DNA of 32,679 nucleotides from the NCBI RefSeq assembly GCF_009765995.1, contig NZ_LMUI01000017.1:1-32679 (forward strand), in the 5' to 3' direction. A model generated the notes under the pieces. That model made no database searches. It worked only from the letters and a program-made list of their open reading frames with translations, and had not been told where the DNA came from. Shown piece after piece: positions 10,523 through 15,187 of the stretch; positions within the stretch are counted from its first letter, which is position 1; every line of letters begins with the position of its first letter. The stretch is from Methylocapsa sp. S129. GTDB lineage: Bacteria > Pseudomonadota > Alphaproteobacteria > Rhizobiales > Beijerinckiaceae. The position numbers and the translations under genes are program-made.

Positions 10523-11395
10523 ATGGGCAATCTCGAAGGCGCCGTTAGCACAACGGCGGATGCGCTCAGTGTTTTACGGGCCGACCAAGACCTGATGCGA
10601 ACGGTGGGCGCGCAGGATCCTTATGCGCATTATTTCGTCTCTGATGAGGGTGAACGGCTTGTCTCGCTGGCTACCCAGATAGACCCGGTCGTGCGGCCGT
10701 TCAGCGCCGCGCGCTATCGTTGGTTCAGCGACCGGATCGAGGACGCGGTGAAAGCTTACGCTCAGGTCATCGTGCTCGGAGCCGGGTTTGATACGCGCGC
10801 TATCTGGATGTCGGCGTTCCATCCCGGCGGCTGCATGGTGTTCGAGGTTGATCGTTCCGAGATGTTGGCAACGAAATACGCGGTGCTTCGCGATCATGGG
10901 GTCGCCAAACCCGACTGGGTTGCATCCGTCGGCGCCGACCTCGCCAGCGATGACGTCGGCGCAGCGCTCGTGAAGGCTGGCTGGGACACAAAGATCAAGA
11001 CTTTTGTCATGGCCGAGGGCGTGGTTTTCTTTTTGCCCGCGCAAGCTGTTTCGAACTTGCTCTCCCCGACGAAGCTGGGACTCGTCGAAGGCAGTAAAGT
11101 TGCCTTGGATTTCTGGACGCGGGCTCGCCTTGAGCGTCTAAATCGAAGAATGTTCGAACTTCGCGGTATGGAGCTATTTAAAAAATTCCCTGCGGGCGAT
11201 CAACTCAGCGACGTGATTAGCACATTGAAAGAGATGGGCTATTCCACCGCGAACATTATGCCATTGATTGATTACGCACAGAACTTTTGGCCGGATTCGG
11301 AAACGTGGAAGGAAGCCGACGGCTGGGCCCTAATCGAGATGCAGGTAGGTAATTTGCGGCCTCTTCGCAGACGAGACGGCGGCGCCGGCGCCTGA
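10523..11395 (+). CDS. Class I SAM-dependent methyltransferase, LCMT/PPM type
   Basis: The product has 290 residues. The pattern is that of the leucine carboxyl methyltransferase-like family (PF04072/TIGR00027 type): an N-terminal RYRWFSDRIEDA block (about 64-75), the SAM-binding QVIVLGAGFDTRA (81-93), the acidic FEVDRS loop (107-112) and MAEGVVFFLP (163-172). Relatives methylate carboxyl or hydroxyl groups of small molecules or proteins. The partner is inferred from the preceding ThDP-enzyme gene, 36 nt upstream on the same strand: the product of that enzyme could be the methyl acceptor. The ribosome binding site is weak. Codon use resembles the ThDP gene more than dnaE, consistent with one acquired unit. 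Confidence 0.82.
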   Translation: MGNLEGAVSTTADALSVLRADQDLMRTVGAQDPYAHYFVSDEGERLVSLATQIDPVVRPFSAARYRWFSDRIEDAVKAYAQVIVLGAGFDTRAIWMSAFHPGGCMVFEVDRSEMLATKYAVLRDHGVAKPDWVASVGADLASDDVGAALVKAGWDTKIKTFVMAEGVVFFLPAQAVSNLLSPTKLGLVEGSKVALDFWTRARLERLNRRMFELRGMELFKKFPAGDQLSDVISTLKEMGYSTANIMPLIDYAQNFWPDSETWKEADGWALIEMQVGNLRPLRRRDGGAGA

Positions 11396-11485
11396 TCGGG
11401 GACGGGGCAAACCAAGACTGGACAGCTTTGGGCCTATGCGCGCGACGATCGGCATCGGTGTCGGGAGTCATCTTGGCCCGAGACC

Positions 11486-11518
11486 TTGACGTGAACATAA
11501 AAAGAACATAGAGAGAAC
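11486..11518 (+). promoter_or_regulatory. Double SOS box (LexA operator) on a putative promoter
   Basis: Three GAAC half-sites begin at 11493, 11504 and 11515, each separated by exactly 7 nt. This makes two overlapping copies of the alphaproteobacterial LexA operator GAAC-N7-GAAC. A -35-like TTGACG (11486-11491) lies directly before it and a weak -10-like TAGAGA (11509-11514) lies inside it at 17-nt spacing, so bound LexA would block this promoter. The first gene downstream is the 34-codon ORF at 11545, then dnaE. Confidence 0.75.
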
Positions 11519-11544
11519 CTTCGGTCTTTCGCCCGGAGGTCGTC

Positions 11545-11649
11545 ATGATGTATCGCGCTGTTGGAATCATGCAGGATATGGTCGAGCTTGCCGCGCTGGC
11601 GGCGTTTTTGGCGATGATCGCCATGGTCGCGCGTTCGCTCGGCGCGTGA
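11545..11649 (+). CDS. 34-residue single-span membrane peptide under SOS control (SidA-like by context)
   Basis: A strong ribosome binding site GGAGG (11535-11539) lies 5 nt before ATG at 11545; the next codon is also ATG, at 8-nt spacing. The frame ends with TGA at 11647-11649. Residues 1-11 are polar (Arg4, Gln10, Asp11), 12-29 form a hydrophobic helix rich in Ala, Met and Leu (ELAALAAFLAMIAMVA), and the tail RSLGA is short and basic, so a single inner-membrane span is expected. A double SOS box lies 26 nt upstream of the start. In Caulobacter crescentus the 29-residue SidA is an SOS-induced membrane peptide that blocks division through FtsW/FtsN. Size, topology and control match here, but homology is not shown. 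It could also be a short leader peptide for dnaE. Confidence 0.65.
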   Translation: MMYRAVGIMQDMVELAALAAFLAMIAMVARSLGA

Positions 11650-11728
11650 TCGCTGTTGACGACTCAGGGGCGAGCCTCGACTAGGGGTCGCGCGGCGCAG
11701 ACAATGGTGGCCGTCCAGGGGAAGAATT

Positions 11729-14700
11729 GTGGATCCTTCGATCATCAAATCCGTCGGCTTCGTGCATTTGCACGTTCATTCCTCCTATTCGCTGCGCGAA
11801 GGCGCGCTGACGATCGAAACCCTGGCCAAGCTCGCCAAGGCCGATGGGATGCCGGCTTTGGCGATCACCGACACCAACAATTTGTTCGGCGCCCTCGAGT
11901 TTTCCGAGAAACTCTCGAAATCGGGCGTCCAGGCGATTATCGGCGCGCAGATCGCGGTGGATTTTAGCGATGCGCCGGCGTCTTCGAGCCCGCGCGCCGA
12001 TCAGCGCCTGGCGCGCGCGCCGATCGTACTGCTCGCGCAAAACGAGGCCGGCTACGTCAACCTGATGCGGCTCGCCAGCAAGGTCTGGCTTGAGCCCAAT
12101 GATTCGGACGAGCCGCATGTTCGTTTCGACGCGCTGGGCGCGGTCGACGGCCTGATCGCGCTGACGGGCGGTCCAGCCGGGCCGATCGACCGCGCCTTGA
12201 CGGGCGGGTTCGCCGATCTCGCGCGTGCGCGGCTGATGCGTCTGGCGGCGCTGTTCGACAGGCGCCTTTATGTCGAATTGCAGCGTCACGACATCGAATC
12301 CGAGAAGGCCGTCGAGCCGCAATTGCTCGATCTCGCCTATTCCCTTTCGCTGCCGCTGGTCGCCGCCAACGAGCCCTATTTCGCGGGGCCTGCTGATCAT
12401 GAAGCGCAGGACGCCTTGCTCTGCATCGCGGATGGCGCGCTGGTCGGCGCGGGCGACCGGCGCCGTCTCTCCGCCGAGCATGGCTTCAAGACGCGGGCCG
12501 AAATGGTCAAGCTGTTTGCGGATCTGCCGGAGGCGACCGGCGCCAGCGTCGAGATCGCGCTGCGTTGCGCGTTCCGCACCCAGACGCGCAAGCCGATCTT
12601 GCCGCGCTTCACCTCGGCCGCCGGCGATGCGCTCGATGAGGTCGGCGAGCTGCGCGCGCAGGCGGCGCAAGGGCTTGCGGCACGGCTTGCCCATTACGGC
12701 TGCGCGCCGGGATTTACTCAAAGCGACTATGAAGCGCGGCTCGCCTTTGAGCTCGACGTCATCGTCAATATGAAGTTCCCCGGCTATTTCCTGATCGTCG
12801 CCGACTTCATCCAATGGGCCAAGCGGCAGGATATTCCCGTCGGGCCGGGGCGCGGTTCGGGCGCCGGCTCGCTGGTCGCCTGGTCGCTGACCATCACCGA
12901 TCTCGATCCCATCCGCTTCGGCCTGCTGTTCGAGCGCTTCCTCAATCCCGAACGCGTGTCGATGCCCGACTTCGACATCGATTTTTGTCAGGATCGGCGC
13001 GACGAAGTGATCGCCTATGTGCGCCAGCGCTACGGCGCCGATCGCGTCGCGCAGATCATCACCTTCGGTTCGTTCCTGGCGCGCGGCGTCATGCGCAATG
13101 TCGGGCGCGTGCTGGAATTGCCGCTCGGCCAGGTCGACAAACTCGCCAAACTGGTGCCGCAAAACCCGGCCAATCCCGTCACGCTGAAACAGGCGTTTGT
13201 CGACGAGCCGCGCCTCAGCGAAGCTTCGGAAGCCGATCCGCGCGTCGCCAAAATGCTCGCCATCGCCGGACGGCTCGAGGGGCTTTATTCCAACGCCTCG
13301 ACCCATGCGGCCGGCGTGGTGATCGGCGATCGCCCGCTGGTCGAACTCGTGCCGCTCTATCGCGATCCGAAATCCGACATGCCGGCGACCCAATTCAACA
13401 TGAAATGGGTCGAATCGGCCGGCCTCGTGAAGTTCGATTTTCTCGGGTTGAAAACCCTGACCACGTTGCAGAAGGCCACGCGCCTGCTGGCGCGGCGCGG
13501 AATCGACATCGACTTGTCGAAAATTCCGCTCGACGATTCCAAAACCTATGAAATGCTGGGACGCGGCGAAACGATCGGCGTGTTCCAGGTGGAAAGCGGC
13601 GGCATGCGCAAGGCGCTGGTCGAAATGCGCGCCGATCGTTTTGAGGACATTATCGCGCTGGTCGCGCTTTATCGGCCGGGCCCGATGGCCAATATCCCGA
13701 CCTATTGCGCGCGCAAGCTCGGCCAGGAGAAACCTGACTATATCGAGCCGCGGATCGAGCCGGTTTTGCGCGAGACTTTCGGCGTCATCATCTATCAGGA
13801 ACAGGTGATGCAGATCGCGCAGGTTTTGTCGGGCTTTTCGCTCGGCGAGGCCGATCTTCTGCGCCGCGCGATGGGCAAGAAGATCAAGGCGGAAATGGAC
13901 GCGCAGCGCGCCCGTTTCGTCGAGGGTGCCGTCGCGCGCGGCCTCAGCCAGAGCAAGGCCGACGAGATTTTCGATCTGCTCGCCAAATTCGCCGATTATG
14001 GCTTCAACAAGAGCCATGCGGCGGCCTATGCCTTGATCGCCTATTGGACCGGCTGGTTCAAGGCCAACCATCCCGTCGAATTTCTCGCGGCGTCGATGAC
14101 GCTCGACAAGTCGAACACTGACAAGCTCGCCGAATTTCGCGGCGAGGCCATGCGTCTGGGCATCAAGGTGGCGCCCCCTTCCGTCAATGGCTCGGACGTC
14201 GATTTTGACGCGCGCGTCGGGGAGGACGGCGCGCTTTCGATCGCCTATGCGCTGTCGGCGGTCAAAGGGGTGGGCGAAGCGCAGGCGGCCGCGATTGTCG
14301 CCGCGCGCGGCGACAGACCGTTCTCTTCGTTGAGCGATATGGCGCGCCGTATCGATCCGCGCGCCGTCAACAAGAAAGCGCTGGAGAGTCTGGCCGCCGC
14401 CGGCGCTTTCGATGAAATCGAGCCTGATCGCGCCATCGCCTTCGCCGCGATGGAGGCGGCTCTCGCGCTCGCCAATCGCACCGCCCAGGAGAAGGCGGCG
14501 GGGCAAAGCGGGCTGTTTGGCGAAAGCGACAACGCGCCGCTGAAAGTGCGCGCTTCGCCCTGGCCGGCGGCCGACCGGCTGCGGCGCGAATTCGACGCGG
14601 TCGGGTTTTTCCTCTCAGGCCATCCCTTGGACGCCTATCAAAGCGTCCTGACCAAACTGCGCATCACGCGCTGGGCCGATTTTGCGCGCGGCGTGCGGCG

Positions 14701-15187
14701 GGGCGCGACATCGGCGCGCCTTGCCGCCAGCGTGCTCGATCGCTCGGAGCGGCGCACCAAATCGGGATCGAAGCTTGGCATCGTCCAGCTTTCCGATCCG
14801 TCCGGCCAGTACGAGGCGATTCTTTTCGCCGAAGGTCTCGCCCAATATCGCGATCTCCTGGAAAAGGGCTCGGACGTGCTGGTGACTTTGCAAGGCGCGG
14901 TCGAAGGCGAGGATGTCCGCGCGCGCATCATCCATGTCGAAGCGCTCGCCTTGGCGGCCGCGCGCATTCACAAGGGCCTGCGGATTTTTCTGCGCGACGA
15001 GGCGCCGCTGCCCTCCATCGAGGAGCGGCTGCAGACCAAAGGCGAGGGCGAAGTGTCGCTTGTCGTCCTGCTCGGCCCGGCGCAGGGCGAGGTCGAGATC
15101 AAGCTGCCCGGCCGCTTTGCGGTCTCGGCCTCGATCGCGGGCGCGTTGAAAGCGGTCGCAGGAGTGGTGGCGGTCGAGCACGTCTGA
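11729..15187 (+). CDS. dnaE: DNA polymerase III subunit alpha
   Basis: The product has 1152 residues, normal for DnaE1. It is the catalytic subunit of the replicative polymerase. The N-terminal PHP domain starts with HLHVHSSYS (His13, His15, His17). The palm carries the catalytic acidic residues in MPDFDIDF (Asp416, Asp418) and KFDFLGLKTL (Asp570). QSGLF at 926-930 fits the internal beta-clamp binding motif, and an OB-fold lies near 977-1075. The length and N-terminus fit the replicative enzyme rather than the error-prone DnaE2; no imuA or imuB is nearby. The GTG start at 11729 is preceded by AGGGGAAG. No terminator separates it from the small SOS-controlled ORF 79 nt upstream, so read-through from that promoter is possible. 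Confidence 0.97.
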   Translation: MDPSIIKSVGFVHLHVHSSYSLREGALTIETLAKLAKADGMPALAITDTNNLFGALEFSEKLSKSGVQAIIGAQIAVDFSDAPASSSPRADQRLARAPIVLLAQNEAGYVNLMRLASKVWLEPNDSDEPHVRFDALGAVDGLIALTGGPAGPIDRALTGGFADLARARLMRLAALFDRRLYVELQRHDIESEKAVEPQLLDLAYSLSLPLVAANEPYFAGPADHEAQDALLCIADGALVGAGDRRRLSAEHGFKTRAEMVKLFADLPEATGASVEIALRCAFRTQTRKPILPRFTSAAGDALDEVGELRAQAAQGLAARLAHYGCAPGFTQSDYEARLAFELDVIVNMKFPGYFLIVADFIQWAKRQDIPVGPGRGSGAGSLVAWSLTITDLDPIRFGLLFERFLNPERVSMPDFDIDFCQDRRDEVIAYVRQRYGADRVAQIITFGSFLARGVMRNVGRVLELPLGQVDKLAKLVPQNPANPVTLKQAFVDEPRLSEASEADPRVAKMLAIAGRLEGLYSNASTHAAGVVIGDRPLVELVPLYRDPKSDMPATQFNMKWVESAGLVKFDFLGLKTLTTLQKATRLLARRGIDIDLSKIPLDDSKTYEMLGRGETIGVFQVESGGMRKALVEMRADRFEDIIALVALYRPGPMANIPTYCARKLGQEKPDYIEPRIEPVLRETFGVIIYQEQVMQIAQVLSGFSLGEADLLRRAMGKKIKAEMDAQRARFVEGAVARGLSQSKADEIFDLLAKFADYGFNKSHAAAYALIAYWTGWFKANHPVEFLAASMTLDKSNTDKLAEFRGEAMRLGIKVAPPSVNGSDVDFDARVGEDGALSIAYALSAVKGVGEAQAAAIVAARGDRPFSSLSDMARRIDPRAVNKKALESLAAAGAFDEIEPDRAIAFAAMEAALALANRTAQEKAAGQSGLFGESDNAPLKVRASPWPAADRLRREFDAVGFFLSGHPLDAYQSVLTKLRITRWADFARGVRRGATSARLAASVLDRSERRTKSGSKLGIVQLSDPSGQYEAILFAEGLAQYRDLLEKGSDVLVTLQGAVEGEDVRARIIHVEALALAAARIHKGLRIFLRDEAPLPSIEERLQTKGEGEVSLVVLLGPAQGEVEIKLPGRFAVSASIAGALKAVAGVVAVEHV

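Follow-up and report, generated by a model that had tools for sequence, protein, structure and literature searches.

A putative LexA-controlled, divergent SidA-type membrane peptide encoded upstream of dnaE in Methylocapsa sp. S129

Does the short open reading frame (ORF) that precedes dnaE in Methylocapsa sp. S129 encode an inhibitor of cell division that is made when DNA is damaged? The window that we analysed is a 32,679-nucleotide stretch of this genome, and its dnaE upstream region has the features listed in Table 1. The two boxes, GAACATAAAAAGAAC (11493-11507) and GAACATAGAGAGAAC (11504-11518), have the middle half-site in common. The full operator stretch, GAACATAAAAAGAACATAGAGAGAAC (11493-11518), therefore reads as three GAAC half-sites spaced 11 nt apart. 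An initial annotation had described three half-sites with perfect 7-nt gaps, an ORF 26 nt behind them with a GGAGG site, and a product of 34 residues with one hydrophobic helix, and our analysis confirmed each of these features. An alternative ATG at 11548 would shorten the product to 33 residues. The predicted peptide, MMYRAVGIMQDMVELAALAAFLAMIAMVARSLGA (P0001; 34 residues), has a best mean hydropathy of 2.36 over 17 residues. One arginine lies near either end, so any membrane orientation is a guess. The stop codon is 79 nt from dnaE.

Table 1. Features of the dnaE upstream region in the window
Feature	Coordinates	Strand	Basis
Possible -35 element TTGACG	11486..11491	+	By eye; TTGA also 5' of the box in relatives
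Predicted LexA operator: three half-sites forming two GAACN7GAAC boxes that overlap	11493..11518	+	Sequence; conserved 5' of relatives
Possible weak -10 element TAGAGA, inside the operator	11509..11514	+	By eye; spacer to TTGACG 17 nt
Shine-Dalgarno GGAGG	11535..11539	+	Read from sequence
34-codon ORF, putative SidA-type single-span membrane peptide	11545..11649	+	Sequence, profile, conservation
dnaE, DNA polymerase III alpha subunit	11729..15187	+	Pfam PHP, DNA_pol3_alpha, DNA_pol3_finger, HHH_6

The operator had also been placed on a putative promoter. A consensus scan found no sigma-70 promoter at the locus, but TTGACG and TAGAGA can be picked out by eye. Among the 94 relatives for which we have both an exact box and a start call, 34 carry TTGA in the 14 nt 5' of the box, compared with 10 of 345 background intervals. 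Helped by this enrichment, we infer a promoter at these two elements, weak as they are. With TTGACG 17 nt 5' of TAGAGA, the operator would span this promoter. GGAG, GAGG, or AGGA precedes the start in 102 of 111 relatives, whose starts were chosen partly by the presence of a Shine-Dalgarno feature. No terminator-like site was found between the peptide ORF and dnaE in a scan of 11380-11800. The same scan revealed a terminator-like hairpin followed by TTTTT within the peptide coding sequence (11588-11604), in two overlapping forms, compared with 0.2 expected from shuffles. This hairpin could damp read-through into dnaE, or it could be a by-product of Ala and Phe codons.

The peptide belongs to no Pfam or NCBIfam family at E <= 10 and has no PHROG match at E <= 1. 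As a lone query, it matched 18 of 60 related genomes at E <= 1. Nine of ten same-genus genomes other than the source matched at E < 0.005. We built two profiles, A1 (16 rows) and A2 (43 rows). Within the family, A1 matched 105 of 199 genomes at E <= 0.1; within the order it matched 52 of 297, and A2 matched 82 of 295 at E <= 0.01. Part of the weakest profile matches sit in long reading frames and are chance matches. Class-wide, A2 matched 19 of 385 genomes at E <= 0.05, convincingly in the window's own order only; the best match outside it (G600, E 8.1e-4) is in a 126-residue frame. We rejected a second copy in the source genome, where the peptide query gave one match only and the extra profile match (E 0.0095) is in a 334-residue frame. 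A PEFG-CTERM identity for one relative was also set aside as weak (E 0.04, below the model cut-off).

For closer study we fetched 120 loci with their flanks, leaving out family matches weaker than E 0.0043 and those order-wide A1 matches whose places lacked a locus. Five loci with long or truncated frames (L061, L068, L070, L072, and L073) were kept in the box and dnaE counts and omitted from the peptide table, from which L019, L083, L085, and L125 were also excluded. The relatives are 28 to 39 residues long (96 peptides), and 94 of the 96 have a hydropathy of at least 1.6. At the helix start there is an acidic D-x-x-E pair, with D and E invariant in the 16 nearer relatives of A1. In the wider A2 set this pair is not invariant, and only the initial M and an F reach 90%. 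In 29 disjoint pairs, which are not fully independent by descent, pS was 0.488 and pN was 0.114 (pN/pS 0.23), and 344 of 569 changes were synonymous compared with 26% expected (p = 7e-66). The ORF evolves as a protein, with purifying selection on its amino-acid sequence.

A GAACN7GAAC pattern is not significant alone. There are 3 in the window, with 0.94 expected, and 182 in the 6.87-Mb genome, where the reversed control pattern is no rarer (204). By the rule that we used, a short membrane ORF stands behind 757 of 20,000 random positions (3.8%). The evidence for the operator is therefore its conservation. The initial annotation had suggested looking in relatives for this operator and for a short ORF upstream of dnaE, and both are there. 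Of 118 related loci (window included), 96 have an exact box between -130 and +15 relative to the point where the match begins and 22 have none there, whereas five equal-sized control intervals had exact boxes in 0/115, 1/115, 0/114, 0/118, and 0/117 cases. We also read loci that had not been used for the profiles. The order-wide A2 search gave 86 places, 26 of them seen before, and 49 of the other 60 were read. An exact box was present in 35 of these 49 and absent from 14, compared with 0 of 145 control intervals. The conservation of ORF, box, and position across genomes leaves a chance ORF behind a chance box with almost no probability.

Some loci depart from the exact box. Nine loci of genus g22 (L027, L031, L033-L035, L039, L042, L043, and L088) have GAACN7GAAT instead, most of them with GAATN7GAAC 11 nt further on, and these variants may reflect a shift of LexA specificity. 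No exact box was present in the eight loci read from family f44 (L435, L436, L421, L422, L425, L428, L437, and L438). Genome G462 has two copies of a 27-residue relative (L435 and L436), one beside dnaE and the other elsewhere.

The alphaproteobacterial LexA box is given as GTTCN7GTTC in the accessible text of PMC12700426. GTTCN7GTTC is the other strand of GAACN7GAAC. In the source genome, such boxes precede lexA and ssb (identified by Pfam) and an SRAP-like gene (24.2 bits, below the gathering score of 27.1). They also precede three ORFs (L363, L373, and L376) that we take to be ImuA-like; the one that was scanned had no Pfam match. This is as expected for a LexA regulon predicted from sequence. 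Three places in the source genome (contigs C5, C24, and C27; L156-L158) match the Pol III alpha family, and together with the three ImuA-like ORFs they probably represent more than one mutagenesis cassette. The genes preceded by boxes came from 20 stretches around other boxes, picked by eye from 100 listed of the 182, with operator-looking sites preferred. By our fixed rule, none of the 23 boxes in these stretches has a short membrane ORF behind it.

We used tblastn with the window's DnaE to ask what follows the peptide in relatives. A dnaE gene was downstream on the same strand in 97 of the 120 peptide-profile loci, with 400 nt or less from peptide stop to dnaE in most of them, and in 44 of the 49 loci unused for profiles. 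A leader ORF that regulates only dnaE, for example by attenuation or translational coupling, might have the same arrangement. The distance of 79 nt and the hairpin with its T-run inside the ORF would suit such a leader. Also, in nine loci, eight of genus g51 (L050, L063, L086, L118, L122-L124, and L126) and L060, dnaE starts about 2 to 12 nt after the peptide stop, a spacing that suggests the two are translationally coupled. However, dnaE adjacency is not strict within the window's genus. Six of the nine other genomes with a relative show no dnaE in the 3.4 to 7 kb read downstream, and five of these six loci retain an exact box. The box thus accompanies the peptide even where dnaE is elsewhere, and this speaks against an ORF that is no more than a dnaE leader, as does the selection on amino-acid sequence. 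We consider a leader very unlikely. The loci L379-L384, L387, and L388 comprise these six, with peptide and box away from dnaE, and two of genus g58 that adjoin an ORF that is presumably KatG-like.

We take the sidA gene of Caulobacter to be CC1927. Caulobacter dnaE is CC1926 (PMC1839093) and sidA is CCNA_02004 (PMC11034885), according to the accessible parts of these papers. SidA is described in the available text of PMC4211646 as the main SOS division inhibitor of Caulobacter; it has 29 residues, resides in the inner membrane, and interacts with FtsW. We located Caulobacter genomes via a CtrA sequence, and DnaE from the genome with 100% CtrA identity was the query for a scan of named genomes. 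In Caulobacter vibrioides DSM 9893, a 29-residue peptide is encoded immediately 5' of dnaE, behind GAACATCTTGTGAAC, and it matches NCBIfam NF033228, "cell division inhibitor SidA," with E 2e-20. Three Caulobacteraceae peptides of the dnaE locus score 59.7 to 72.4 bits on this model (E 2e-20 to 1.9e-16), and this recognition means that the peptide at the Caulobacter dnaE locus is SidA. Four further locus peptides score 41.2, 44.3, 25.3, and 25.6 bits. The last two are a Brevundimonas-type pair below the cut-off of 35, and the model is narrow in missing them.

The operator is at this locus as well. We could recognise the dnaE start in 28 of 30 Caulobacter-family dnaE loci, and 17 of these 28 have an exact box upstream. 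Of 80 named Caulobacteraceae loci, 77 remained after removal of three with too little upstream sequence; 43 of the 77 have an exact box within 600 nt, and 58 have a SidA-like motif in an upstream frame. This motif is absent upstream of dnaE in all 11 Asticcacaulis loci (L247, L249, L252, L253, L255, L259, and L262-L266), a possible loss within Caulobacteraceae. The Caulobacteraceae peptides have a pN/pS of 0.36 (25 pairs).

The window peptide and SidA therefore share a position, and we compared their sequences directly. A profile-profile alignment of the relatives with Caulobacteraceae SidA gave a probability of 91% (E 9e-7, 28 columns), and a narrower set gave 90% (E 1.5e-6). The observed alignment score was 27.5, compared with a maximum of 14.05 in 100 permutations, in which hydrophobic and other columns were shuffled separately and for the A2 profile only. 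The SidA profile separated 96 relatives from 1377 other membrane segments with an AUC of 0.917, and the reverse comparison, the relatives' profile on 25 SidA peptides, gave an AUC of 0.984. Above the 99th percentile of control segments were 50 of the 96 relatives and, in reverse, 14 of the 25 SidA peptides. Five of the 1377 unrelated segments scored at least as high as the window peptide with the SidA profile. On NF033228, an equivalog model with a cut-off of 35 bits, the window peptide gave no match at E <= 10, and one of 43 relatives reached E 0.067, with none for the rest.

These comparisons make homology with SidA likely, although sequence alone would not settle it. There are several differences. 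The window peptide has 34 residues and SidA 29; its helix is preceded by D-x-x-E-L, in place of the R-E/D-x-x-A-L of SidA; and it is without the FVWM core. However, both genes are directly upstream of dnaE behind a GAACN7GAAC operator, and both products have about 30 residues, one membrane helix, and similar profiles. When sequence, operator, and gene order are considered together, homology is the best reading. The window peptide would then be a divergent SidA-type peptide, orthologous by position to the SOS division inhibitor, and not a SidA equivalog. The suggestion of a SidA-like peptide in the initial annotation is upheld by profile similarity and, more strongly than we had expected, by SidA being the Caulobacter counterpart, but the peptide is unmatched by NF033228. 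Because NCBI's SidA model does not match it, we call it a new branch. We propose a grouping of SidA-type peptides in a wider sense, marked by the dnaE position, a LexA box, a single helix of about 30 residues, and profile similarity beyond composition, and the window peptide has all of these.

Alternatively, different lineages might each have evolved a short membrane ORF of their own under a LexA box next to dnaE, with a SidA-like job but without homology. The modest similarity to SidA when sequence is taken alone would allow this, and in other alphaproteobacterial families the dnaE-upstream peptides score mostly near background with both profiles. However, the profile alignment is above all 100 permutations, and the relatives and Caulobacteraceae share both a gene neighbourhood and a sequence pattern in which an acidic residue is followed by an A-L stretch, F, and M. 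Independent origin of the window peptide is thus improbable.

In another reading, the peptide is an SOS-induced toxin of the TisB/DinQ kind, which acts on the membrane itself, leads to dormancy, is controlled by antisense RNA, and has no division target. Its size and topology fit this kind. An antisense RNA is known for tisB. The accessible texts on Escherichia coli describe DinQ as a LexA-regulated toxic single-span peptide, with antisense RNAs that act on dinQ (PMC3567139), and TisB as a dormancy-inducing membrane toxin (PMC11575346). By these descriptions both are small SOS-related membrane peptides like ours, but unlike SidA-type peptides they are toxins. Against this reading, the positional counterpart in Caulobacter is a published FtsW-binding division inhibitor (available text of PMC4211646). 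Rfam gave no matches around the locus (10900-12200) at E <= 1, a search that an undescribed antisense RNA would escape. A toxin of this kind is unlikely.

We think it quite probable, instead, that the product of the ORF is a divergent cell-division inhibitor of the SidA type under SOS control, repressed by LexA and with a target in the late divisome. LexA on the double box over the promoter would keep the gene off. Damaged DNA, acting via RecA, would lead to LexA self-cleavage, and a peptide of 33 or 34 residues would be made. It would insert into the inner membrane as a single helix and block the late division complex (FtsW/FtsI/FtsN, as with SidA) until repair restores LexA. Its contact surface might be formed by the acidic D-x-x-E-L at the helix start and by the F and I/M positions within the helix. 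For SidA itself, AlphaFold models, not of high confidence, put the peptide on helix 7 of FtsW (accessible text of PMC13396833, 2026). Transcription of the peptide gene may continue into dnaE and so raise Pol III alpha as well, because the genes are 79 nt apart and no terminator-like site was found between them.

Other damage-induced membrane proteins act on division. DidA of Caulobacter is also a single-span division inhibitor induced by DNA damage, but unlike the window peptide it has 71 residues, is induced via DriD and not LexA, and binds FtsN, as described in the available part of PMC4211646. YneA of Bacillus, SosA of Staphylococcus, and ChiZ of Mycobacterium are SOS division inhibitors, damage-induced membrane proteins with an action on late division, and YneA interacts with FtsW (accessible text of PMC13396833). 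They belong to other lineages, and we liken them to the window peptide by description. The accessible open-access literature, in which subscription papers are mostly not covered, yielded no description of SidA outside the Caulobacter group and no account of how alphaproteobacteria outside this group stop division after DNA damage.

How far might such a unit extend? We sampled dnaE loci across the class, where 202 genomes had dnaE, and took approximately the 90 loci with the highest scores (we skipped one that contains an internal stop, and 20 further loci of the class-wide list were left out). The dnaE upstream region was read in 87 of the 90, since three were without a recognisable dnaE start. 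In 17 of the 87, three of them from the window's family, a box lies no more than 600 nt away on the same strand as dnaE. Outside the family, 14 of 84 loci have such a box and 70 do not. By the fixed rule, 13 of the 14, from ten families, have a membrane ORF of 31 to 47 residues behind the box. The scores of these peptides are mostly near background with both profiles, and we do not claim the short dnaE-upstream peptides of other orders as proven homologs. Outside the family, only position and control, and not sequence, argue for common descent. Either there was an ancestral unit whose peptides have drifted beyond recognition, or there were repeated origins. Our tentative proposal, which we hold a little short of even, is that a checkpoint unit made up of a LexA box, a short membrane peptide, and dnaE is ancestral in the alphaproteobacteria, with SidA as its best-preserved member.

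If this proposal is true, then SidA would be no Caulobacter speciality but one member of a family that extends through much of the class, and a single SOS transcript may serve both to halt division and to supply the replicative polymerase. The locus shows that position and operator make it possible to trace a putative checkpoint peptide of some 30 residues between distant genomes even when single-sequence searches, or NCBI's model, do not recognise it. A testable checkpoint candidate is thus available in a great many genomes together. The locus also prompts us to ask why a division inhibitor stays beside the gene for the replicative polymerase.
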